DNA of 64,000 nucleotides from Paraphysoderma sedebokerense (taxonomy: Eukaryota; Blastocladiomycota; Physodermatomycetes; Physodermatales; Physodermataceae), in the NCBI GenBank assembly GCA_025602915.1, contig JAHLJZ010000022.1, positions 62,001 through 126,000 on the forward strand, in the 5' to 3' direction. Below the pieces are notes generated by a model. That model saw only the letters and a program-made list of their open reading frames with translations. It was not told where the DNA came from and searched no databases. This document shows positions 32,944 to 54,601 of the stretch, piece after piece. Positions within the stretch are counted from its first letter, which is position 1; every line of letters begins with the position of its first letter. The position numbers and the translations under genes are program-made.

Positions 32944-33016
32944 GGGGATCTAGCTCAAATGGTAGAGCGCTCGCTTTGCATGCGAGAGGCACAGGGATCG
33001 ATGCCCTGGATCTCCA
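32944..33016 (+). tRNA. tRNA-Ala (anticodon UGC)
   Basis: A 73-nt cloverleaf without an intron. The 7-bp acceptor stem GGGGATC pairs with GATCTCC (one G-U). The D arm is GCTC...GAGC, the anticodon stem is CTCGC/GCGAG with loop TTTGCAT (anticodon TGC), and the T arm is CAGGG/CCCTG with loop ATCGATG. The discriminator base is A. The A and B boxes are intact, so it should be transcribed by RNA polymerase III. Confidence 0.96.
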
Positions 33017-33501: not shown

Positions 33502-36500
33502 TTAAGCTGCGCACACTTTTTTGGCGACAACTTCTCTAATCCATCTATACCACCATGCACCACCTCTGACTCGTTTGAATCTTAATATCCAAACTCGATC
33601 TAACCCCCGAATTCTACAAACTTCAATCTCCATAATTAATCGGTCACCTCCCAACCAGCCTATCCGTTCAACGAGGTCTTTCACTTTGCTCTGAATGATA
33701 CCAGTTCCTGATGGGGAATCGGCGACATGACCAGAATCGGTTCGACGGATAGTAGATTGAGGTACAAAAGAAGATGAACGAACAATGGTACCAGTACCGG
33801 ATGGATCGTTTGGAAGTATCTTTTGGACGGAAATAGTTGGGGTAGAGGAGTAGTAATTGGATATATGCACAGATAACGGCATGGTGGATGGAAGTGGCGG
33901 TACAGGCGGCATTGGTTCCTGCGGTTGATAAGCACTTGATGTACTAGCTACAGATACGGACGAGCCAGTTGAAGGCTGTTTGTAAAACGAATTGGTGGCT
34001 TTGGTAACAATTTGGGAGCTACTGAATAGGAAGGATTCGTATGATTTGGCATTCGTTATTCGGTTTAATGTGATTTCGGGCGCACTCTTCCTTCGGTTTG
34101 CTCCAACCATCTTTGTCAATTTCAACAAACCACTAGGTAAGAAAGAGGAACTCGATGAAGACGAAGTCGGAGTAAATGGAATTGAACTAGCATATGTATC
34201 TTGGTGGTGAGGAAGCTTATAAGTCAACAATGGCACAGGTGGAACGTCTTCGGTGTTATATTGTGATGGGGGGACGCCTGAAAATGATTTCCGACGGCGG
34301 GTTCTATCGATAGAGTAAGTGCGGTTCGTCGAATGTAGATTAGGGGTTGATCTGGAGGCATGTGTTGAAACACGATCACGGGGAGCTCTGTTTGAAGTCG
34401 ATGGATCCGGCTTTGCTTGAGAAAGTTCGAGTTCTTCCTCCGGGTGGTAGAGCTCTTGCGGCGAGAATGGTTGCTTCTTAGCCATTGATTGAACAACTGG
34501 ATAAATGTCCGGTTGACTATACAATGTTGGATAATCTTTCGGTAGTGTTACCGCATTAGTGGATGAAGACGAAAACGTAGAGTACAAAGAGATCGAATCG
34601 AACGATTTTCGACGTCGTTGGCGTTCGTCAATTTCCTCTGTAGATACATCTCCCGTTGACCTGGGAACTGGAGTAATCGCATCGCTCCCTTCGTTAACCC
34701 TAACCATGCTTCCGGTACTCACGGTATCTTGTAATGCTCTCGAAACGGCTTCGTTGTTTCGTTCTTTGGCAACTTCATTCAACAATCGAACCGGAATACT
34801 TTCCACCACTTCCACTAATTCTAATTCAGCCTTCACTCTATCCTTTGTCAACCCTTTTTCTCCGGTTACAACCTCTGCTCTTAGCTTGAATTTGCCTTCA
34901 CCGTGGCCAGGTAATCCTGTAATTCCGTCAGACTCATGGGAGTGTACCTGGAAACCTAGACCTTGCAAAACTTTCTTTATCTCGAACAGGGTGGTTTCAG
35001 GAGGCTTTGAGAGCAACAAGTTTCTATCCAGATGTGGTGAATCGTAAAATGGAGGAAGCAGGTCTTGGAAGTAAGAAGCTGGAATGGGAGGAGGGGGAGG
35101 GAGAGGTGAAGATTGGCCGAATATGAGACTCGCGAGGGCGGAGATGGATTTGGGACGACGCCGTCTCTGCCTTTGCTGAGGGGTAGAAGGAGGTGGCTGC
35201 ATCTCAGGGTACTGCGAGACATAGGATTTTCGTCGCGGTTGGAGAACAGGGAATTCGGGAGTAGGAGGGACAATAACTCGTTCGTAGACAGGTTCATTGA
35301 GCAGACTATGAGATTTCCGCCTTAGAGTTTCAACAAATGATAAGCTTCGACGACGGCCCCCGGAGGAACCATCACTTGTCTCGGAAATAGGGGATGGCTG
35401 AGGATGCGGCATTGTGCTAGACCGAAATGATGGTGAAAGTTGCGGAAGGTCCCCAGATCGTGCAGACATTCGATGCGGAAGTGAAAGAAAGTTTGGATTA
35501 AGGTGAGGAAATTCCAATGGCACTTCAGACTTTGTATAGACTACATCATCATCGTTGTGAACCATTCGTTGGAGAAGTGACTTCTTCCTAGCAGGTTTGT
35601 TGGGAGCAGTTTGTGAATGACGTTTTGAAGATCCTTCAACATCAAGAGGAGTCACAAGAGGAGTTGCCTGCGATGGGGTCAAAATTGTCGGGACTTGAGG
35701 AACGCTTGGGGGGCGGCTATCATTATTCGGTCCTGGTGGTAACGGTTTTGCACTCAATCGATGATTGCTGGCGACAGACCTCCTTCGTTCATATTCCTCT
35801 TTCCCAAGTCTATTAATTTCGCTTTCCAAGTTTAATCCCCCGCCCATACTAATGTCAACATTCAAAACAGGACGCGAGGGAGGAGGAAAGCTGGTTTGCG
35901 TGGGAAGGGGTGTATCAACTCTGTCAACATCCTTGTTCTCTGCAGTTTCATGATTGCCCAATTTAGATTTGATCCAACCCCAGGTTTTAATCTTTGAAGC
36001 CAATGCGGAGGCATTTACCCCGTTGGAATTATTGTCACCTGGTACCGAATTTGTTGACAGGGTATTTTCAACAGAGGATGATACTGGAACAACCGTGGGT
36101 GAGGTGGGTACAGATTGTGCCCTTATGACTTCGTCAGTTAAACCATTGCCGCCTTGTTTCTGGATACCAGCATTTAGCGCACTGTCAGATGCCGTCTTAG
36201 TCCTTTTGAACATATTGAGAGAGGGAAGCGGAATTCGCTTTTTGTCCTTTGATTCCGACCTAAGATCTTCGTGTGACGGGCGAGGCAAAGACGCAATCGT
36301 CTCCATATCCTCCCCGAGAATTCGTGCTACTTTATTCTTTTTCACTGCAGGTGGTTGCGCATCAGTGGGCGACGGTTTCTTGAGGATGGGTTTCACTGGG
36401 GAAGGCGGTCGGTTTGAGGGAGGCGCAGATGATGTGGTATTTCTAAGCGGCGCAGAGCGAGGAGGAGGGGGAATGGAAATGGGCGCGGGTCGGTTTCTTT

Positions 36501-37993
36501 GCTTTGATTTCGGGCGTCTGATTGGACTAGCACCGGAACGCATTTCACTTAGAGGGCGATCAATGGTCATGTGATCAGGTGATGCTCGGCCATCATTGGG
36601 AATTGGAGCAGAAACCGACTTCTCAGGAACAGCAGGACTGAACTGTTTTGGGGGTAACGACGGTGGTCTGTTCTGTGGTTTTGCAGACGACGGTGGGGGA
36701 GAAGGAGATTGCTTCCTCTGAGGAGTATTGCTTTCCAAAGCAATGGGCGGCGAGGTCAGGGTGGATGTGGAAGATCTCGATGATGATGCCATTGGCTGTA
36801 TATTTTCCTTGTTGGGGTCTGTTGCGGATATCGATATAGTTTGCATTGAGGGGGAAGATATTTTTGATTTAAAGAAAAAATCGTGATACTCTCTGAGCCA
36901 CTCGTGCCGCATCACTTCTTCCATAGTCGCTCTGACGTTTGGGTCCGGTACAATCATTCGCTGGAGTAAATCCCTAGCGCATTCAGTGATATAAGGTGGG
37001 AAATGAAGGGGCGTAGGTTCTGACAGAATGTACTTGTAGAGAAGAGTGATATTGTCCCCTGAAGGATTCTGCGGATCATCATCAAAAGGGAGATAACCGG
37101 CTGCGAGATATCAGTAGGTTAGTATGTTCCATTTATTAACAAAAGTTTCTCCATAAATGAGCTGTCTTACCGAGCATAGAGTACAGGATTACGCCACAGG
37201 ACCAGACATCCGACAGAGTACCGACATAGCCATCAGCTATCACTAATTCAGGAGCTAGACGGAAATAACGCAACAAACCCCATTTATGAGTTATTGATCG
37301 AATAAACTACAGAAAATAAAAAGTTGTCATACCTGCATAGCATGGGGAGCCACAGCTTGTATTCATCAGAAAGTCAGCGTCCCGCACTCTCTTGCGTTGA
37401 TCTTTGGTCTTGATACCAGAGTCAGAATGTGGAAACTGATTAGCAAATCCGAAATCAATGATCACTAGATCTCTCTTATCAGTCAACAGCAAATTTTCCA
37501 ACTTCAAGTCTCTATGGACCACATTATGTTCATGTAAATAATTGACACCAGAGACCAATTGAGCAAACAATCTTTTGGCTTCGGCTTCTTTCAGGAAACG
37601 TTTGGCCAATATATAATCGAATAATTCTCCACCCGAAGCATATTGAATAATAAGACCAATTTGGGTCGGAGTGGTGACAACATGATGTAATTTGACGATA
37701 TTAGGGTGCGAAATTGATTTCAATATTGCGATTTCTCGAGACAACTTTGTTGAGCGTTCGGGGTCATTTAGGAGACTGTTGTCGAACAATTTGACTGCCA
37801 CATAAGATTTTGTCGGAGGATGAAGTGCTAACTTGACTTTGGCAAATTCACCTTCGCCGAGAGTCTGGAGGAGTTTGTACGTCCCGCCGAACAAAGAGGA
37901 GTCAGGGGAAGATTTCTGAGAGAGTGCAGCCGTCGAGGAGGCGGGGTCGTTGGCGGCCGATAAATCAACAGAGTCAGTCTGGGACGGAGCCAT
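33502..37993 (-). CDS. KIN4-like CAMKL kinase with interrupted KA1 domain
   Basis: Ser/Thr kinase of the fungal KIN4 (Snf1-related) group, which in yeast acts in the spindle position checkpoint. Exon 1 (from ATG 37993): L-G-E-G-E-F-A-K-V-K, V-A-V-K-L-F, H-R-D-L-K-L-E-N and D-F-G-F-A, then a small insert and T-S-C-G-S-P-C-Y-A. Exon 2 gives S-D-V-W-S-C-G-V-I-L. Exon 3 (about 3.6 kb, from 37097) opens with G-Y-L-P-F-D-D-D-P-x-N-P, typical of KIN4. After the kinase come over 600 Ser/Pro/Arg-rich residues, then T-L-F-E-I-K-K-V-L-Q-G-L-G-F (first half of a KA1 domain, near 34990). About 380 disordered residues follow before M-E-I-E-V-C-R-I and L-R-F-K-R-V-R-G-G (second half, at the C-terminus). About 1400 residues in total. 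KIN1 is the main alternative. Confidence 0.85.
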
Positions 37994-41084: not shown

Positions 41085-42878
41085 TTAGCCCTCCAATCTC
41101 TCCAAAATTGCTTCTAACCCTTTACTTCCAAACGGTACAAACAACACTTCTGATCCATCCGACATTGTCTTTCTCACTACGATTTTGTGATCCCAAAATT
41201 CGGTCAAAATAGACTTAAAATTCACTTCACTCGTCACCAAGAATTCTTCTCGACATTTAGAGTACAAAGCCGTATACGGTATCCCATGATCTTGAAGACT
41301 CATAGATCCAGATTGATCGACACCAGCAGAGGAACCGGATGACGACCCGGATTTTAAAGAATCCAGTTGATGTTCGAGTAACAATTTAAATACGTTTCTA
41401 GATGTATCAGGCAAGTTCCCTAATGTTGTGATTGCACTTTGAATGGTAACTTTGTCTTGCTGAACCATAATCGAGTTTTCAAGACTAGTTTCAATTAAAT
41501 AGTCTCTGAATGTAGTCACATTGTGCCAAGTCCAATTGAATCTGGTCGATTTTGGGACGTCCCATAGATTGACAGCGTGGATTGAATCTATTGATGCGAT
41601 GAACCGAATGTTTGGGTGAGCGGCTAAATGGGATAATGTGGTTTGAGCTTTCTCTGAACGGAGCGACGGCCCATCAATGTTGTGAATTAAAATGTACAGT
41701 GTTCTGTAGGGGCGGGTCTTCGATGAAAAAGCATTGAGGATTAGATCTAGGTGGTCGGAGAGTTGACCCGGCGTTGTAGAGATTGAGAGGATGGACGAAG
41801 TGATTTGAGTCAATATGTCTTTGATCGTGAGTGTTGGAAAATATCCGTTAATTTCCAATACAGGAACGTTGGGCAGAATAGTATCAGTGAATTTAGTGAG
41901 TAAATGCTTCTTAGAACCATAACCATAGAACATAAGGTTGAATCCCTGGTGCAACAGAGTGAACCACTCAATAAATAAATAACGTTCGTAAAATGGTTCC
42001 AATTGCGAAATTTCGTTTGCGTGCTTTGGTTTTTGTGAAGCGAGACATTCAAGGAATTGCTTATGATTGAGAGTCGGTAACTGTGATAGTGTATTATTTG
42101 ATGTTATTGATTTGGACAGCTGGTCTTCAAAATACCGCTCTGTTCCGATATCGTCTGTATTCTCAACATCTCCAATATGTTGTTCACTTTCCTCCTCATC
42201 TTCTTCCTCTGCTTCATCCTCGCCATCTTCACTATCGTCGTCATCAGATACATCGAGTTCCTTCACCTTCGACAAAGCTTGTTCATTCTTATTCCGCCGG
42301 AACTGCTGGGCAGCGCTACCCGGTGTAGCGGCCCCTGATTTGATTCTATTCCTTGGAGTTCTTGTCCTTGTTTCGGCTTTTTGAGTGAATTTAGAATTTG
42401 GTGTCTTTTTTGAACTGAGCGGGGTCGATTGCGAAGTGGCCTTCTCGTTTGGTGTCGTGGTTTGTGATTTCGCAAAGGAGATAATATCCACTTTCTTTTT
42501 AGCAATAGCAAATCCATAAATATCTTCACCACGTAGATCATTCTCGTCATTTATAACTTCTCCATTCCCACCATCACTTTGATTCTCGCCCTCATCAGAC
42601 TTTCTTCGCTTTGTTGAGAGTAATAAATCATTGTCAGAATCGTCTTCGTCATCTGAATCTCGATGTTTGCTTGACCGCTTCGGCGGTTTACTCGGTGTTG
42701 AAGACTCAAAGAGAGCACTATCGGTATCGATAGTTTTGCGGGCAGATCGAAGAGGAGTTTTGGATTTGGGTTTTCGGCCTCGCTTCTTCAAGATTTTGTC
42801 TGATTCGGGCACGACGTTGGTAATTAGAGAGGGGAGTTCGGAATCATGAAGACAAATGACTTGGAGTGGTTCTGGCAT
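41085..42878 (-). CDS. ORC2: Origin recognition complex subunit 2
   Basis: ORC subunit that binds replication origins and loads MCM. Intron-free, about 597 residues. The start ATG at 42876-42878 gives M-P-E-P-L-Q; the frame is open a little farther upstream but without an ATG. The N-terminal half is disordered and charged: K-K-R-G-R-K-P-K-S-K (an AT-hook-like basic patch near 42775), Ser/Asp stretches and an acidic run of Glu near 42185-42240. The C-terminal half is the ORC2 AAA+-like domain: F-N-L-M-F-Y-G-Y-G-S-K-K-H-L-L (degenerate P-loop, as usual for ORC2), L-Y-I-L-I-H-N-I-D-G-P-S-L-R, A-A-H-P-N-I-R-F-I-A-S-I-D-S and L-W-D. A C-terminal winged helix follows. The length is normal. Confidence 0.93.
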   Translation of the reverse strand: MPEPLQVICLHDSELPSLITNVVPESDKILKKRGRKPKSKTPLRSARKTIDTDSALFESSTPSKPPKRSSKHRDSDDEDDSDNDLLLSTKRRKSDEGENQSDGGNGEVINDENDLRGEDIYGFAIAKKKVDIISFAKSQTTTPNEKATSQSTPLSSKKTPNSKFTQKAETRTRTPRNRIKSGAATPGSAAQQFRRNKNEQALSKVKELDVSDDDDSEDGEDEAEEEDEEESEQHIGDVENTDDIGTERYFEDQLSKSITSNNTLSQLPTLNHKQFLECLASQKPKHANEISQLEPFYERYLFIEWFTLLHQGFNLMFYGYGSKKHLLTKFTDTILPNVPVLEINGYFPTLTIKDILTQITSSILSISTTPGQLSDHLDLILNAFSSKTRPYRTLYILIHNIDGPSLRSEKAQTTLSHLAAHPNIRFIASIDSIHAVNLWDVPKSTRFNWTWHNVTTFRDYLIETSLENSIMVQQDKVTIQSAITTLGNLPDTSRNVFKLLLEHQLDSLKSGSSSGSSAGVDQSGSMSLQDHGIPYTALYSKCREEFLVTSEVNFKSILTEFWDHKIVVRKTMSDGSEVLFVPFGSKGLEAILERLEG

Positions 42879-43262
42879 GGATATATGATGGTGGAATGTA
42901 TGGATCTCGATTGTATAATGTTGTGTGTTCTTCTCGTGGGATTTGGTGAGTTGTGAAAGGGCAGGAGGAAACGCGAACAAGAACGAAGTAAAACCCTACG
43001 GTTTATCCAGAGATATTGACGCACATCAATGCTATGAAATAGAGCGGGATGAATCATTCAAATAGCTGTTGCTTTCTTTTGTCTTTTATTGTAATGTCAT
43101 CATAGATACGGGAGTCGCCCCACTACTGTTGGATCACTCAGTGTAGCTCATGCATTACAAGGAAAAGATGTATATCATCCAAATTTGTATACTACTATGG
43201 CATGATTTAGTGCCATAACAAGTATACATTGCCCCCAGTAAGACTACATAGTTCAACATTTA

Positions 43263-44084
43263 TCACTTGGACTCACGGCCAAAGAAATCGCAATACTCCT
43301 TCCAGGTCCATTCTCCATTCTCATCACCTAAAAATTCTGAAAAGCGGTCCAACACATCCCGATCGACATTTGGATTTCTAACCAAGCAATCCCAGTGTAT
43401 TTCATTAAGAAACTTTGTTATGATGTTCTCCGACAATGGCTGATATCGACTGAGCATGTCCCAGTCTAGTCTTCGATGAAATCTCTTGATGTAATCTTCA
43501 GGCAAGTCTTCATGACGACTCAAATATTCCCAGTTCCAGTCCCTGTCCGCTTCTATTTCACCGTACTGTCTGTACTTTTGCATTTGATACTCAATATCAG
43601 CTTTCATGGCGTCTATAAAGATCCAGGACTGTTTATGAAAGAACTCGTGGACGAAGGCATCCGAGAGACCCAGATTTTCACCTATCAGCAGCCAGTTTAC
43701 TAGGTGTTCATGTCGACGGATGAAGTCTTCAGAAATTGGCTGATATTGGGATATCATATCCCAATCGACGTAGTCACGGAATTCATCGATGAATGACTCG
43801 GAGAGAATTTGATGGCGTGACAACAGAGACCAGTTTAATTTCGTATGAGAATGCAAAAATCGGACAAAGGATTCCGAGAATTGTCGCCGAATGAATAATT
43901 TGCCAAGGAAGGGTGGGTGTAAAAGGTAAGGACTGTGCTGAATCAGGGTATGTTTGTTCTCTGATATCACCCTGTTGCAGAAACTGTTGATCAGACGGAC
44001 AGTCTTGAAGCGGAAAGGATGAACAAAGTTTCCGACAAAGTAGAGAAGAAGATCGTGGTCTTGGAACAGTCTGGCCAGAGTCAT
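43263..44084 (-). CDS. Tryptophan-repeat protein with about six 23-residue repeats
   Basis: Intron-free, 273 residues. After an N-terminal hydrophobic/basic segment (residues 1-75), which could hold an F-box-like helix, about six tandem repeats follow. The consensus is F-I-x-x-F-x-x-x-V-D-W-x-x-I-S-x-Y-Q-x-L-S-E-D. Clear copies end in D-W-D-M-I-S-Q-Y-Q-P-I-S-E and D-W-D-M-L-S-R-Y-Q-P-L-S-E; one copy is enlarged by about 30 residues. Proteins with similar W...S-E repeats are found in giant DNA viruses and in scattered protists. I do not know a function. A ctag directly before the ATG could be a splice acceptor, so an upstream exon cannot be excluded. Confidence 0.65.
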   Translation of the reverse strand: MTLARLFQDHDLLLYFVGNFVHPFRFKTVRLINSFCNRVISENKHTLIQHSPYLLHPPFLGKLFIRRQFSESFVRFLHSHTKLNWSLLSRHQILSESFIDEFRDYVDWDMISQYQPISEDFIRRHEHLVNWLLIGENLGLSDAFVHEFFHKQSWIFIDAMKADIEYQMQKYRQYGEIEADRDWNWEYLSRHEDLPEDYIKRFHRRLDWDMLSRYQPLSENIITKFLNEIHWDCLVRNPNVDRDVLDRFSEFLGDENGEWTWKEYCDFFGRESK

Positions 44085-44349: not shown

Positions 44350-47300
44350 ATGCTCTCATCGCCGAGGCCCGAAGATTCATCCCCGGTTCTCACTTCAGAT
44401 GAAATAACAAATTACTTGACCGAAACCGTCCCTCAAATTTTAGACCGGCATGACGCAGAGAAAGACAAAACACTGGTAATTTTGTCACATATTTATTATT
44501 TTAACACATCATTTAGACCAAATTTGTCGAGTTTGTTAGTCTTGTCATGAAATAAGCTGACACTCCTGTCCCTATGACACGAAATCAATCTCAAGCTGCA
44601 AAATATCCAAAGTTTGAACAACGTATATAGAAATGTGAATTCTGTCATCAATAACAGTGCGCCGCATTTTCGGTTTGGAGCTCGACAGGATGAAAATACT
44701 GAAAAAGGCCCCGACCATGACGCCGAGTCTACCCGCCCAAAAATTAAATGGATAACTTCAAGCCATACCGATTCGAAAAGTGTTGCGGCAAATGATCGAT
44801 TTCCTGAATTTCAGTATAGGGGATACATCGATCTTCCTGCCTCTGTTTCAAGGTAAGCCTTTTTTCAGCGACCCAAGAGACAATCACGTTATTGGTAACA
44901 GTTGTAGTTGTATTTAGAAACGGATGCTGGGCTGTCAAATTCGATCGTTATGATCCGTCAGGCAAAAGATTCGCCATTTGCGGCACCAAGGTTATCGTCT
45001 ACATACTGTCGACATTCTGCGGTCTGAGATACTAATTTAGATTTTGCATTCTGGGCTTTAGGTCGTGGTCCTGGAGGCTACAGATGACGGAAATTTTGCT
45101 CCCTTGTTTATTTATCCAAAGACCTGCTTTTCTTTAGAATTCACTTATGATGAGGACGATCCAACCACGTCACTACTTGCTATCGGTGGAGATGAACCGG
45201 TCATACACATTGTAGATTGTAAAACTGGTGTGGTGCGAAGGGTAACTCATTTATTGCGGTCGACAACTTCATCTTATCTTAAAGCTGACTACTATCGTGT
45301 TTTCAGCGGATAGTTGGTCCAGGAGGGGTAATTTATTAATTTTTATGTTTTTTCCATGAGAATAATCGTCTCACGTAACGCAAATCACTTCTGATTCAGG
45401 GCATTCATTCAATTACCTTTCATCCTCGTCACCCAAGTATCCTCGCCTGCGGTTCGAAAGATCAGTCAGTGCAGTTGATCAACATAAAGACTGGACACTT
45501 AATTGCAGTGTTTGGTGGAGCAAATGGGCATCGTTCGGAAGTTGTTTCAGTTGTATGTAAGATATGCGTGAATTTAGTTAACTTTATGTCTGTTAACAAT
45601 GGTGACTCCAGGATATTACAACCAGCGGTTCGTTTCTAGTCAGTGGTGGTAAAGATCATTCTGTCCGCATTTGGTCTCTCTCGTCACCTCAGTTGAAGAA
45701 TGCCATCGAAAATTCCTACAATTATGATCATCCAACATATCGAACAGGTCGATTGATATCGGATGAACCCATATTCGAAATATCACGGTTTCCTCCGCCT
45801 ATACAATATCATCACCCTGTATTTCTCACCTATTTTCTTCATTGGGATATTGTTGATTGTGTTCGATTCCTCACAGATGGCGTGGCGCTCGATGAATTAT
45901 TTCTATTATCCAAGTCTGTGGATGGATGCATAATGTTATGGAAACCCAAAAACCCGAAGAAATGGGTCGCAGGTACAAAAGTAATGCATTCTCTATTATT
46001 TCTGTTATTTCGTACATAACATTGTAAATTACTTACTTTTGGCTGATCTGTTTCTTCTTCCTTTCTCTTACTACAAAGGATCGCGGCCATGCGGTCGACG
46101 AAATCCTTCAATTTGAGTACAAGGTGACATCCGATACACAATGGTGGCCCCAATTTGCCCTTGATCCTTCCCTAACTTATTTAACTGTCGGTTCGCCCCG
46201 TGGATATATTTACGTTTGGAATATACCTGATTCTATCGACGAAGATAAATGTTTTCAACGAGGTAAAGAGAAGACTGAACAGTGGCTTCAAGAATCCGAG
46301 AAATCGCCATCAGATTTATCCATTGGCGGAGGGAGAAAGAGCGAGTCGGATAATGTTGGTAAGAGAGGGGGGACACCGACACAAGAAGGTGCAAATGATG
46401 GAAAAGAGAATCGAAATAGAAATGAGTGGGGCACGCAGGGGAATGATATTTGGTTGAAACTAGGAAGGTATCGTGCCGAGCCGGCAGAACCTTTAAAGTT
46501 GAAATTTGAAAATAAGCATAATGCGCAAATTGAATCGATAGCATTCAATTATGGCTCATCACGGTATGCAACAACGATCTTCCTTAGTGATCGCTTCTAT
46601 CTTTTCGCTTTCATTCTCTCCAACTGAAATTAGTCGTATATTGCGTGTTAACGACTCCTCCTCCTCGCAGAATTCTCCTCGCCTTATCGTCTACTGGGCG
46701 ATTACTTCGATGGGATGTAAGCTCGTCATCGACTACAGTCAAATCAGGTGATATTGACTGTAAAAGGACTATCGTCACTACTAAAGGCATCCCAACATCA
46801 GATGTACCGGATGATTCTGGGCTTCCGACCTTTCCTTGTTGGACTCACATAACCAGGAGTAGAGAGGTATCATTGATATGGTTTTGAATATTCCGGCCGC
46901 TTTATGAGACGTTTTGACATTAATCGCGTTACGTGTTCATTTTGTTTGACAGACCCCAGATGATAATGTTCTTCGGTACCTAAAAACAACATCTGAGTTT
47001 ATATGTCTTTTCTTATAGCTAACTATCATATTTTGGCAGATTTTTACCACAGATGCCCAATCTTACAGGCGACGAAGACGAAGACGATATTGATAAAAAA
47101 TGGCAAAAGATTTTGAACGAAAATTTTGATTCGTTTGTGTTCGCGGATTTGCCACTTTGGAGATCAGGATACTTCGGTTTGCAACATTCCAAATTCACCT
47201 CCTCCTCCGTTTGATAAACTAATGCTTCTACGCCATTCATATTTTCACGTTATGCACTCAACCCGATTCATTTCAATATCCCTTCTTAGATGTCCTAGTT

Positions 47301-50240
47301 GAAGCCGTGGAGCCGCTCATCAGAAAATATCAGATTCAAGAGAAACGGTTGCGAGATGACGAATTAAACAAAATTCTGAATTCTCAATTTTCATCCCCTG
47401 TTCCGCAAAAAGTCGGAAAGGAGGATAGACAAAGGCAAGAGACGACAGTAAGAAGACTTGTCTGGGCAATTACAAAGTTGTACGGTGCTGACGCCGGTGT
47501 CAATGTTTTGAGCTCGTTTGTGCTCTCGCTATTTGACTTGATTTGCGACCTTTGCTTTGGCTGACTTCACATTCACATAACAGGATATGTCATAAGCTTT
47601 CAGTTACGCCTGTAACCCAACTAGAACCTGACTGCCCAAGGTATTTCAGTGATTTCAACGTCCAAACAACCAGATGTTTTCTTAACTTCACTCAACGAAT
47701 ATTTTCATCAAAAGCCAACACGACCGTGACGTATACGCCAACACCTATTTTGACTGGTGGTGTTCCCGATGCAGAACATTCACCTGCCACCATTGTGTGT
47801 ATTAACCCCACATTTTGAATTCGCCTTTATATCCTTCCTTGTAATGTTCACTGTTTCCTCTTTTTCGCGCCAGATCTTAACGGAGAGAACCCAATCGCAC
47901 CATATCCTCCATGCAAATTCCCCGAGGCAATTCCGTTACCGTTCGCCTACCGTCCTTGTCAACCGCAATGTTTCAAACACTTCATTCTATCAACGCCGAA
48001 TTTGATGGCGCTTCCGCGCGTCGATTTTGACGATGGCGTGAAAGAAATGTTTGAATTGGGAGTGAAACATTATGGGGTGGATACAGTCACAATTAATAAG
48101 AATGGGCAAGAAATGCGTCAAAAGGACTACTCTTGTTCTATTGCTGGGATGGTTGACGGTAGAAGTTGCTGGGAGGTATGCCTTAAACATTTTATCAGTC
48201 TAAGGAATTCCAGATTGTTACTCAATCGGCTCACAACTTTGATTCGTATTGATTCAAAAAGATGTACCAGTATTTTATTCGAAACGGATACCACTCTATT
48301 CGGAATTCCGAATCTTCAGCATCAAGCTCTCCTATAATCTCAAAAAACTCATCAGAAAGGAAGTGTGATATCAACGACATTCACGATAGTCTAAGTCAAT
48401 ATTCTATGGAAATTGATCAAGATGTCGAAGAAATAATTCCATCCAGTTTGTATTCCATGTCGCTTCACTACTCCCTTGTTTGGAGAATATTGACAGTTAT
48501 ATTGACATTGCGCTTTTAGGTGGGGAGATTATGCTCAGTGATAGCGAAGAAGTAGATATTAAAATCGCTCAAGCTGTTGCTAATGAAGCAAAATTTGAAC
48601 CCAAACTCCAAACGGGTGATGGTCTGTTTCCTTATTGATTTGCGTTTCAGGGTCAACCGTGCTGATATTAATTGCTCCGATGTATTGGTTTCGTCTTTAA
48701 AATATTTAGTTGACGTGTACAGTTTTCCTGAAGAGGAGAACGAAAATAATGCGAAGGGAAATAGCAGATCCAATAAAAGGAAGAAAAAAACAAAAACAAA
48801 GACTAAAAAGAGAGCCAAGTGTACGTTGTCTCTGTGTCCGCCCAGTCCTATCCTGCTTACCACGTACACTCATTTTTCCCTTGCGCTTCGGCAATAATAC
48901 AGCACACCCACACGAATCATCGCTTCCTGCATATATTCCCTGTGCGCATCCAGGAACGTGTGAGTCTTCAGGCATGTGTAATTGTGTCGAACGAAACCAC
49001 AAATGTACAGAGTATTGTCATTGTCCTTTGAACTGTAAAAATCGATATGAAGGTTGTAGTTGTAAAGAGTGCGATGCGGATTGTTCTTGTATACGAAGCA
49101 ATAGGGAGTGTGGAAAGTATTGTAGATGTGTAAAAGATATGTTGGGATGTTGTCGGAACATGGCGTTACAAATGGGACTGGCAAAGGTATGTTATACCCT
49201 CACACTTTGATCTCAGTTTATTTCTCTCCAGATTTTCTGATCTGTTAATGATTTGTGTTGATGACTAAACGCATGCTCTCTCCGCTCTGGCACTGTAAAA
49301 TTGTTTGACTCTAATGCCATGTAGAGAGTGTACATTGATGTTTCTACCCTTCCCAATGCTGGCTACGGTTTGTTCGTTGACGAAAATGTAAAAAAGAATG
49401 AATTTGTTGGTGAATATATTGGCGAGGTACGTTTGCCCAGCTCAGTCCAACGACGTCTACGTATTGGAAAACAAAGTTGACATGAATCGATTCTTTCGAT
49501 TCGTCCCTTGCGGACAAAGAAAATATCAACAACCGAAGGTGACCGAAGAGAAAAATTGAACGCAGCCTACTTGTTTGGCTTGAATGAAGGTAAATTGTAA
49601 CTCTTACGTTCCTTCTATTTTATCATCTTTTTCTGCCCTACTCTGAGTAAACGGCAATTAATCGACCGCTTGTTTAAGATTACTTGATAGATGCTAGTAC
49701 ACAAGGCGGAATGTTTCGATTTGCCAATGACGGGAATGAAAAGTTAAACAATATACAGCCTCTGAGTAAGTATTTTCAAGTCTTCGTTTCGATTCAAATT
49801 TCTTCATTCTTCTGCGTAAGCTGTAATTTGAAATTACGTGGACTAATGATTCATTAACAATTGGTCGTCGTTTTCAATTGTATTTCATTTCGCGAACTCT
49901 CCATATAAATTGAATAGTCATGTTAGCGGGCGGCGAACATCGCATTGGTTTTTACGCTAAAAGGGAGATAAAAAAGGGGGAAGAATTGTTTTTTGATTAC
50001 GGGTATGTATTCTTCTGAATCAATTCTTGTCATTGGGATCCGCGGGCTGACGCTCGCTCCATTTCTTCTACCAGACCCCACTTTAAACGAACTCTTCTCA
50101 ACTCTTCTTCCTCTGCGTCAAAAAAGCAAAGTAAGAATAATAACGGATATGGGGGTAAATCAGATAAGCGCGAAAATAAAAGGAATGGGAAAAAAGAATT
50201 GTTGAGAGTCAAAGGATTACATGGGACGTTGCGGTATTAA
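44350..50240 (+). CDS. Predicted EED-EZH2 fusion: both PRC2 core subunits in one protein
   Basis: One reading of this locus gives a single multi-exon gene. Part 1 (44350-46719) is EED, a WD40 protein that reads H3K27me3. Part 2 (from about 46826) is E(z)/EZH2, the H3K27 methyltransferase. Exon 46671-46866 holds the last WD blade (I-L-L-A-L...L-L-R-W-D-V), then 35 linker residues, then F-P-C-W-T-H-I, all in one frame with no stop and no ATG. Exon 46953-46975 and exon 47040-47176 (introns of 86 and 64 nt, the second with a CTAAC branch site) continue with D-D-N-V-L-R-F-L-P-Q-M, aligning to the EZH2 segment E-D-E-T-V-L-H-N-I-P-Y-M-G-D-E. The first in-frame ATG of the EZH2 half is 47053, too late for a full EZH2. 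The stop is TAA at 50238-50240. Two separate genes with an unseen EZH2 start remain possible. Confidence 0.75.
44918..46719 (+). other. EED: EED WD40 beta-propeller (part of the predicted fusion)
   Basis: Close to animal EED along its length: [20 protein letters not shown] (EED F-G-G-V-E-G-H-R-D-E-V), [17 protein letters not shown] and [14 protein letters not shown]. The H3K27me3 cage positions, F97, Y148, W364 and Y365 in human EED, align by eye to W, F, W and W, so an all-aromatic cage is kept. An insert of about 85 residues, Lys/Glu/Gly-rich, sits between blades 6 and 7 (46235-46490). EED in turn stimulates EZH2 when it binds H3K27me3. Confidence 0.88.
48955..50015 (+). other. EZH2: EZH2 CXC and SET domains (part of the predicted fusion)
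   Basis: Pre-CXC part: [10 protein letters not shown] (near 47955) and a SANT/MCSS-like segment ending G-R-S-C-W-E (near 48160). The CXC domain (48955-49185) has two zinc-binding cysteine clusters. The SET domain runs from V-Y-I-D-V-S through [32 protein letters not shown] and R-F-A-N-D-G-N to H-R-I-G-F-Y-A-K-R and E-E-L-F-F-D-Y-G. The SAM-binding and catalytic-site motif R-F-A-N-H-S is here R-F-A-N-D-G; the catalytic Tyr of F-F-D-Y is kept. Exons are short and introns often under 100 nt. A Lys-rich C-terminal tail of about 50 residues follows. Confidence 0.88.
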
Positions 50241-50422: not shown

Positions 50423-51420
50423 ACCTCTGACCAACACATAATGTACTCATGAACGAAAATTATACACTAGTCGAGCCACATTCCTTCGAATGAATGATAT
50501 GAGCTCGTCTCCGGAATGCAATCGGCGGACAAAAATTCACGCATTTTTATAACACAGCAAAATCAATTCAATATAATATTTTGACGAGGCAGATCCCTAT
50601 TACATACAGTTTGATATCAAACCTCTGACCAACATACCATGTACCCATGAAAGCAAACTCGGCACAATCTTTGCTGCATTCCTCTTGATGAATGATATGA
50701 GTTCGTCCCCGGAATGCAATCGGCGGACAAAAATTCACGCATTTTCATAACATAGCAAAATTATTACAAAATAGTCTTATGACGCTGCAGATTTCTGTTA
50801 CATACAATTTGAAATTAACATCTCTGATCAACATAACATGTACCCATAAACACAAATTCGACACTATCTTTGCTTCATTACTTCTAATGAATGATATGAG
50901 CTCCCATCCAGGATGCAATCGGCGGACGAAAATTCACGTATATTTGTGCCATAGCAAAATAGATACAAAATAGCCCGATGCGACTTCCATACAATTTGAT
51001 ATTGACACCTCTGATCAACATATCATGTAAGTAAAGACTCTTGCATGTACCCATGACCCATGACAGCAAATTCGACATTCCTCTTAATGAATAATTTGAG
51101 TTCGCATTTGGAATGCAATCGGCGGACGAAAACTCGCGCATTTTCGTGACATAGCAAAATCAATACACAATAGTCTTATAACGCTGACGATGTCTATTAC
51201 GTACGATTTAATATTAACATTTCTGATAAATATAGCATACACTTAGGACAGCAAATTTGACACTATGTTTGCTTCATTCGCCTTAATGAATCATCTGGTG
51301 CGGCATCCGGAATGCAATCGGCGGACCAAAATCCACGTATTTTCGTGACATAGCAAAATCGATACAAAATAGTCGTATACACTCTGCAGACTTTGATTAC
51401 ATATAATGTGACAATAAGCA
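50423..51420. repeat. Tandem satellite: five copies of a ~199-bp unit
   Basis: A core GCAATCGGCGGA recurs at 50519, 50716, 50915, 51115 and 51314, giving periods of 197, 199, 200 and 199 bp. Each unit also has (A)CCTCTGA(C/T)CAAC near its start, a GAATGATATGAG-like stretch, and CATAGCAAAAT after the core. Copies differ by about 10-25% by eye, so the array is not very young. The unit does not keep an open frame and has no tRNA-like fold. It lies between the EZH2 3' end and the CDK7 3' end. Confidence 0.85.
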
Positions 51421-53630: not shown

Positions 53631-54601
53631 ATGATCGTAAATTCGATGTCGTCACTGCGACGAATTCCTCGGTCGGCAAACATTTCTCTGAGGGCTCTTG
53701 CAACTCATTCCTCTTCTCAACCTTCTTCAACTCCTGATTCGACTCTTTCACAAAAGAAATACGATTTAAAGGCATCCACGATACTTACTCGACGTCCTCT
53801 ACTTACCCGACCACTTTCTGTTTTTGAAAAAGAATATTATAATTACGTGCACACATTATACAACTCTTCCAGTCGCGAATTTGTTTCTGAATTTTGGACG
53901 AAAAAAGGCGCTCATGTATCGTCCACAGAGACTTCTCCTTCCGCATCTGAATCCGAAGACGTTACGTCTGAATCAAAGTCTTCGTCAAACGAATCCCAAT
54001 CATCTGAATCTACCTCTTCTCCTTCAAATTCGTCTACACAAAAATCTACTACTTCTTCTGAACAAGACTATAAGTCACTTACCCGCTCACCTCACGAAAA
54101 CTTATACCTAATCGTCAAAAAAGAAAGGCAAAATCATTCGTGGCAGTTTCCACAGGGGCATATAAACATAATACCAGAAACAACTGATAATAGCAAGCCT
54201 CCATCGAAGCATGAACCTTTACATGTAGCTGCGAAACGAGAATTATTGGAAGAATGTGGAAAGAATATGGATGTATGGATGGTTGGAAAAATGCCGATCG
54301 GTGTTTACACGTATGATTATCAGCAGCCTTCCAAGACAGACAAGAAAAGAGCAGAAAAAGCCAGCGCAGCGAAGGTAAATAGTCGTCTTAGCTTGTCCCG
54401 ACGTAGCTTGATATTAACGGCCCTTCTTTTTCATTTCTCTACCTGTGAACTACACAGATCTTTTTTCATAAAGCTCATATTCTTTCGGGACGCCCTCAAC
54501 CAGATATGAAAGAGGTCTCTGATTACGCCTGGGTCACAAAATCCGAGTTAAAAAATTATGTGGATAAAGAATACTTTGAGAACGTGGTAGAGCTGTTATA
54601 A
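53631..54601 (+). CDS. MRPL46: Mitochondrial ribosomal protein mL46 (MRPL46)
   Basis: Large-subunit mitochondrial ribosomal protein with a Nudix fold. Exons 53631-54374 and 54458-54601 (phase 0), 295 residues. The N-terminus (R-R-I-P-R-S-A-N-I-S-L-R-A-L) is a mitochondrial targeting sequence. Then L-T-R-P-L-S-V-F-E-K-E-Y-Y-N-Y, typical of mL46, a Ser/Glu-rich insert (residues 100-150), W-Q-F-P-Q-G-H, and R-E-L-L-E-E-C-G, the remains of the Nudix box. Exon 2 gives F-F-H-K-A-H-I-L-S-G and the C-terminal W-V-T-K-S-E-L. Start: the ATG at 53631 or the one at 53646; both precede the targeting stretch. Confidence 0.9.

Follow-up and report, generated by a model that had tools for sequence, protein, structure and literature searches.

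Background

EED and EZH2 form the core of Polycomb complex PRC2, which silences genes. In known PRC2 the N-terminus of EZH2 lassos EED; its SBD, EBD and BAM parts hold the partner, and SAL and SRM connect EED to the SET domain (PMC4853476). In that paper, SRM residues Leu128, Pro132 and Met134 of human PRC2 are described as packing on SET-I, Val657, Lys660 and Tyr661 as packing on the SRM helix with Lys656 bonded to it, and EBD and BAM are termed "of unknown function" (PMC4853476). The fungi covered by reviews encode EED and EZH2 as two distinct proteins, and fungal EED typically carries a long insertion close to its C-terminus (PMC8788455; PMC7348808).

The locus described here lies in a window of 64,000 nt (the whole stretch of DNA that was analysed) from Paraphysoderma sedebokerense, an alga-infecting fungus of the Blastocladiomycota. 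An earlier sequence-only reading of this window had proposed a natural EED-EZH2 fusion and advised a search for relatives among chytrids; the organism is instead a blastocladiomycete. In our analysis it is quite probable that one nuclear gene encodes such a fusion; most likely its product is a PRC2-like reader in a single chain whose methylation is weak or changed, not a fully typical H3K27 trimethylase.

Compared with the PRC2 core of human and Chaetomium thermophilum, the predicted protein has in common the EED propeller with its aromatic cage positions, and the SAL, SRM, SANT2-like, CXC and SET parts of EZH2 in their usual order. It differs in being a single polypeptide in which SBD/EBD is undetected and BAM is unrecognisable, and in its SET domain, where NH is changed to ND and SET-I is shorter. 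With fungal EED (Neurospora, Fusarium) it shares the long insertion near the C-terminal end, of about 90 residues here, but the EED of those fungi ends at its C-terminus whereas this one continues into EZH2. The EZH2-SUZ12(VEFS) fusions engineered for crystals (5kkl, 5bjs, 5wg6 and others) are likewise covalently joined PRC2 subunits with a fixed ratio, as their PDB titles and PMC6002473 describe. Those are man-made and carry SUZ12 at the C-terminus of EZH2, whereas the present fusion would be natural and carries EED on the N-terminal side of EZH2. The parts of PRC2 are known; the one-chain EED-EZH2 architecture would be new, and it is seen in one species. No report of a natural EED-EZH2 fusion was found in the open-licence literature, represented largely by titles and the beginnings of abstracts, which is consistent with the statement of the sequence-only reading that it knew of no natural case.

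Gene model

The coding part starts with an ATG at 44350, and the last base of its stop codon is 50240 (window coordinates, + strand). There are 22 introns, all of the GT-AG type and 59-152 nt long, and the 1309 codons contain no stop or frameshift. The exon and both intron positions that the sequence-only reading had given for the junction were correct in this model, and its main claim, EED and EZH2 in one reading frame, held. The features are as follows.

44350-50240, + strand: coding part of the proposed EED-EZH2 fusion gene; 23 exons, 1309 aa, top-scoring model
44350-44475 and 44596-44852, + strand: exons 1-2; N-terminal extension, aa 1-127, no EZH2 EBD similarity detected
44918-44990, 45062-45241, 45307-45327, 45400-45552, 45612-45980 and 46079-46563, + strand: exons 3-8; EED-type WD40 propeller
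46671-46866, + strand: exon 9; last EED strand to RWD (46716), then 50 in-frame codons into EZH2 SAL
46867-46952, + strand: intron 9; 86 nt, GT-AG, phase 0
46953-46975, + strand: exon 10; start of the SRM strand, TPDDNVLR
46976-47039, + strand: intron 10; 64 nt, GT-AG
47040-47176, + strand: exon 11; remainder of SRM, FLPQM onward
47290-47515, 47584-47798, 47874-48175 and 48262-48445, + strand: exons 12-15; SANT1/MCSS region (aa 681-840, no detectable similarity) and SANT2-like part (aa 905-930)
48520-48621 and 48734-48820, + strand: exons 16-17; basic stretch, where the public model has no intron
48903-49186, + strand: exon 18; CXC
49325-49426, 49520-49589, 49679-49765 and 49918-50002, + strand: exons 19-22; SET, with a 4-residue deletion of SET-I in exon 20
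49729-49731, + strand: Asp codon GAC at the site of the NH(S) His of 36/37 homologues
50075-50240, + strand: exon 23; basic C-terminal tail and stop

A public protein of P. sedebokerense (P0001, 1021 aa) is identical over residues 1-1020 to our first hand-spliced model, so an independent annotation must share the first 15 introns of that model, both junction introns among them. Its terminal residues read into intron 16 of the fusion model, and the match there is partly coincidental. It is annotated as "WD40-repeat-containing domain protein" and stops at 48636-48638, upstream of CXC-SET; an NCBIfam scan of it returned no family. The WD40-only name together with the cut at 48638 would keep surveys by keyword or domain from noticing the fusion.

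Splice-site matrices were built from the 15 introns common to P0001 and the hand-spliced model. The best-scoring intron 16 was 48622-48733, with moderate scores (donor 4.7, acceptor 5.6) and with alternatives; it supersedes our earlier choice of 48626-48722, which scored 3.9 and -0.4. Either version preserves the frame into CXC-SET. Most similarity tests were run on the model with intron 48626-48722, which differs only near residues 1017-1024. Because the public model ends before CXC-SET, the final third of the frame depends on the proposed intron 16, and nowhere is the gene model less certain than in this region.

EED half

Human EED is matched by residues 172-443 with E = 5e-39 and 137 bits when PDB sequences are searched. 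The best 24 PDB sequences for this half were all EED (134-137 bits) and the next was a designed propeller (101.5); in this comparison the EED-type similarity exceeds that to other WD40 proteins. The propeller is complete and closes with LLRWD, whose last base is 46716. The EED match stops at aa 443, ahead of the insertion, and the last blade resumes near residues 536-570.

The cage residues of human EED, which we take to be Tyr148, Trp364, Tyr365 and Phe97, have aromatic counterparts. Alignment pairs Tyr148, Trp364 and Tyr365 with F175, W415 and W416, which may form a trimethyl-lysine cage, and the fourth, Phe97, was paired with W132 by eye only.

EZH2 half and its SET domain

Searched against PDB sequences, the second half matched the CXC-SET region of EZH1/EZH2 with E = 2.5e-39. 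With human EZH2, 87 of 209 aligned CXC-SET residues are identical (42%), and 16 of the 18 human CXC cysteine positions are aligned with cysteine. The fusion therefore has an EZH2-type CXC plus SET. The SET domain reached 58 bits with PF00856 (cut-off 22.4), while the Pfam model preSET_CXC (PF18264) had no match in the genome, not even at the CXC of this gene. Ahead of the CXC, residues 841-940 scored higher against an EZH2 profile than all shuffles (0/150 as good), with a SANT2 match over 26 columns; for the SANT1/MCSS region (aa 681-840) 64/150 shuffles were as good. The whole pre-CXC half had a profile score of 30.6, and one of 200 shuffles was higher (31.8).

The SET domain is changed at two places. 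FANHS is FANDG in the fusion, so that the Asn-His motif has become Asn-Asp. This catalytic His is present in 36 of 37 aligned EZH2-type proteins (37 of the 38 matches were aligned, P0094 being omitted as a poor match); the remaining one, P0093, a metagenomic EZH2-type protein with FINS, has Ser, so the loss of the His is not unique to the fusion. In SET-I, four residues after DRR are absent, among which fall the counterparts of human Lys656 and Val657; at Tyr661 the fusion has Leu. SET still has the GxG turn and the FFDY tyrosine, and the zinc cysteines of CXC persist. With the His lost and SET-I four residues short, active PRC2 and H3K27 methylation cannot be assumed, and FAND in place of FANH makes the protein an EZH2 homologue by descent, not a proven H3K27 methylase. 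We infer that both the SRM-SET-I relay and catalysis have been altered.

The alteration may go as far as a pseudo-enzyme, that is, a true fusion whose SET is catalytically dead and which either acts as a reader or scaffold of the EED type or is undergoing decay. This is a serious alternative, though we hold it to be the less probable one. It would fit the Asp at the conserved His, the shortened SET-I with its Leu, and the human EZH2 mutant H689A, called catalytically deficient in PMC4741719. The retained GxG turn, CXC cysteines and FFDY tyrosine argue against it, as do the 1309 codons free of stop and frameshift and the loss of the same His in P0093. A natural fusion with weak or changed methylation remains our preferred reading.

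The EZH2 lasso

Similarity to the SBD-EBD arm of EZH2 was detected neither in residues 1-129 nor at the junction (571-610). This agrees with the sequence-only reading, which had taken the EED-binding helix of EZH2 to be replaced: none was detected in the first 129 residues or in the 33-residue gap. When the N-terminal residues 1-129 were tested for EBD, 118/150, 53/150 and 211/3000 shuffles scored as well. The Pfam EBD model (PF11616) had no match in the genome, in a search that was insensitive. Residues 571-603 have about the length of BAM, and BAM similarity after the propeller was undetected there, 77/150 shuffles scoring equally. SAL and SRM are retained, while the SBD-EBD lasso, and perhaps BAM likewise, is without a detected counterpart.

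It can be imagined that residues 1-60 of the N-terminal extension are a displaced EBD, which would place EED inside EZH2, between EBD and BAM. The arrangement is topologically neat, and helices are predicted at 16-31 and 40-60 in an AlphaFold2 model (P0001 as single sequence) that is otherwise meaningless (mean pLDDT 32.1). The shuffle counts given above leave it without sequence support, and we regard it as unlikely. In the fusion that we prefer, EED stands ahead of what is left of EZH2.

Junction between the halves

Exon 9 encodes parts of both proteins, the last EED strand and residues 604-620 of the EZH2 SAL (46816-46866). The two halves are thus 99 nt apart, which equals 33 residues (571-603). 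After RWD the exon continues for 50 codons, where the sequence-only reading had counted 35 further residues. Only one + frame is open through this tail; the exon has six and two stops in its remaining + frames. It had also been described as having no stop and no ATG; there is indeed no in-frame stop, but ATGs occur at 46802 and 46811, both out of frame. By themselves 50 open codons are weak evidence, since given the local stop frequency such a stretch has a chance of about 0.05. The in-frame codon-usage score of the tail is 0.20. Windows of the gene have a mean of 0.24, and 83 non-coding 150-mers from this locus do not exceed 0.103.

The stretch of residues 604-661, which exons 9-11 encode across introns 9 and 10, aligns to human EZH2 105-157 (SAL and SRM), and in the ungapped junction alignment W113, L128, P132 and M134 are identical. 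Residues 571-680 scored 28.2 against the EZH2 profile, above the peak of 22.7 in 150 shuffles (0/150 as good). SRM was also found by an independent oomycete profile of 13 sequences, with 6.4 bits where 2000 shuffles reached at most 5.1. When the junction region (222 aa) was run as a single sequence in phmmer, no PDB sequence matched at E <= 10, which means that the SAL/SRM similarity is visible only with a profile. The sequence-only reading had placed DDNVLRFLPQM in EZH2 just after the SAL, and it took a flexible linker to replace the EZH2 N-terminus up to that point. The segment does belong to EZH2, as the SRM strand, but the SAL is not absent and sits in exon 9. Since EZH2's own SAL/SRM begins at about residue 604, only residues 571-603 could be a linker.

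Two adjacent genes on the same strand, EED and EZH2, joined on paper only and with the true first exons of EZH2 elsewhere or overlapping EED, would be the conventional arrangement, EED and EZH2 being separate in the fungi reviewed in PMC8788455 and PMC7348808. An unused donor-like GTAAGC lies immediately 3' of RWD (46717-46722, + strand) and scores 6.7, compared with 5.1 for the donor of intron 9 and 2.5 for that of intron 10. Retention of intron 9 (46867-46887) would end translation after REVSLIWF, six residues into the intron, and yield an EED-only protein of 626 aa. Both features would suit two genes, but SAL and the final strand of EED are encoded by a single exon, and similarity to EZH2 105-157 continues across both junction introns. 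A gap of 99 nt is too small for a separate promoter plus an EZH2 N-terminus of about 100 codons. No AATAAA, TATAAA or TATATA occurs within 46401-47400, where the one related signal is an ATTAAA at 47363, and the public model likewise joins the halves. We therefore judge two genes to be quite unlikely. As a separate start for EZH2, the first in-frame ATG past the junction (47053) was rejected, for it lies downstream of SAL, and there is no space upstream.

The donor at 46717 could also be used with the acceptor at 46952. This would skip 46717-46952 in frame and give a protein of 1259 aa without SAL, so the GTAAGC is possibly an alternative isoform or a relic. The fixed 1:1 ratio of EED to EZH2 that the sequence-only reading deduced would follow only if the full-length mRNA dominates, and is weakened by the 626-aa and 1259-aa products that are possible on paper.

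A contig deletion or misjoin that took out the EED end and the EZH2 start is very improbable: the junction has one copy in the assembly and hence no confirming second haplotype, but the propeller is intact to RWD with frame and coding signal unbroken beyond, it would take a great coincidence for an accidental join to unite the two PRC2 partners in frame, in correct order and within a single open exon, and nearby genes such as ORC2 and MRP-L46 are ordinary for a fungus.

Copy number and relatives

The junction DNA is single-copy in the 27.3 Mb assembly, and an exon-by-exon search found no second EED or EZH2 in the genome. The next-best genome matches to the EED half were other WD40 proteins with at most 33.9 bits, and those to the EZH2 half were two other SET loci with 29.7 and 27.7 bits; all were rejected as candidates. 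SUZ12 (VEFS box) had no genome match, in the same kind of search that missed the fusion gene's own CXC. There are two H3 loci with an intact Lys27 context, ATKAARKSAPATGG.

None of the 38 protein matches of EZH2 type carried an EED half. Among 55 other protein matches the only one with CXC-SET was P0017, which was rejected as an ASHH2-type SET protein without a WD40 Pfam entry. Searches by shared 5-residue words found no fusion in other species and recovered no recognisable stand-alone EED either, so confinement of the fusion to P. sedebokerense is not shown.

Some SET loci of the genome occur as pairs with equal scores and lengths on different contigs (C79:77620 with C81:2093, and C7:60099 with C9:445989). 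They are either recent duplicates or uncollapsed haplotypes.

A possible one-chain PRC2 core

As read from the sequence, the predicted chain has an EED propeller with a putative aromatic cage, then SAL in the same exon, followed by SRM, a SANT2-like part, CXC and SET. We lean slightly towards a particular form of the fusion, a one-chain PRC2 core in which EED was joined where the EZH2 lasso began, the lasso was lost, the SAL/SRM relay runs straight from the propeller, this chain is the sole EED and EZH2 of the genome, and SET was remodelled. Tethering by the SBD-EBD arm would be replaced by the peptide bond that links the final strand of the propeller to the BAM/SAL region, and the fusion would set EED and EZH2 at 1:1. 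The EED cage may read a trimethylated H3 tail, and the directly attached SRM/SAL may relay the signal to SET, through the shortened SET-I and the altered active site.

If this is true, the read-write coupling of PRC2 can operate inside a single polypeptide, and evolution paralleled the engineering of joined PRC2 subunits by structural biologists. The gene would then be a natural test of the role of the EZH2 lasso (SBD, EBD, BAM) and of the separate duties of EED and EZH2, and Blastocladiomycota would be a site of PRC2 rebuilding. The altered SET motif would raise the question of whether reading persists without ordinary writing.

Neighbourhood of the gene

The following ordinary neighbours were found in the window.

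32944-33016: tRNA-Ala
33502-36957, - strand: KA1-domain protein
41085-42980, - strand: ORC2
53631-54509, + strand: mitochondrial ribosomal protein L46

An intronless ORF of 273 aa (43263-44084, - strand) and the fusion gene are divergently oriented, with 265 nt between the two ATGs. The ORF has repeated units of the pattern W-x-x-[LM]-[SI]-x-x-x-x-L/I-S-x-x-[FI]-I, and no Pfam family was above cut-off for it. Immediately behind the fusion gene lies a tandem array (50423-51411) in which a unit of 198-199 nt is repeated about 4.7 times, a unit length close to the nucleosome repeat length. Two other contigs of the assembly, C10 and C26, carry arrays or pieces related to this repeat.
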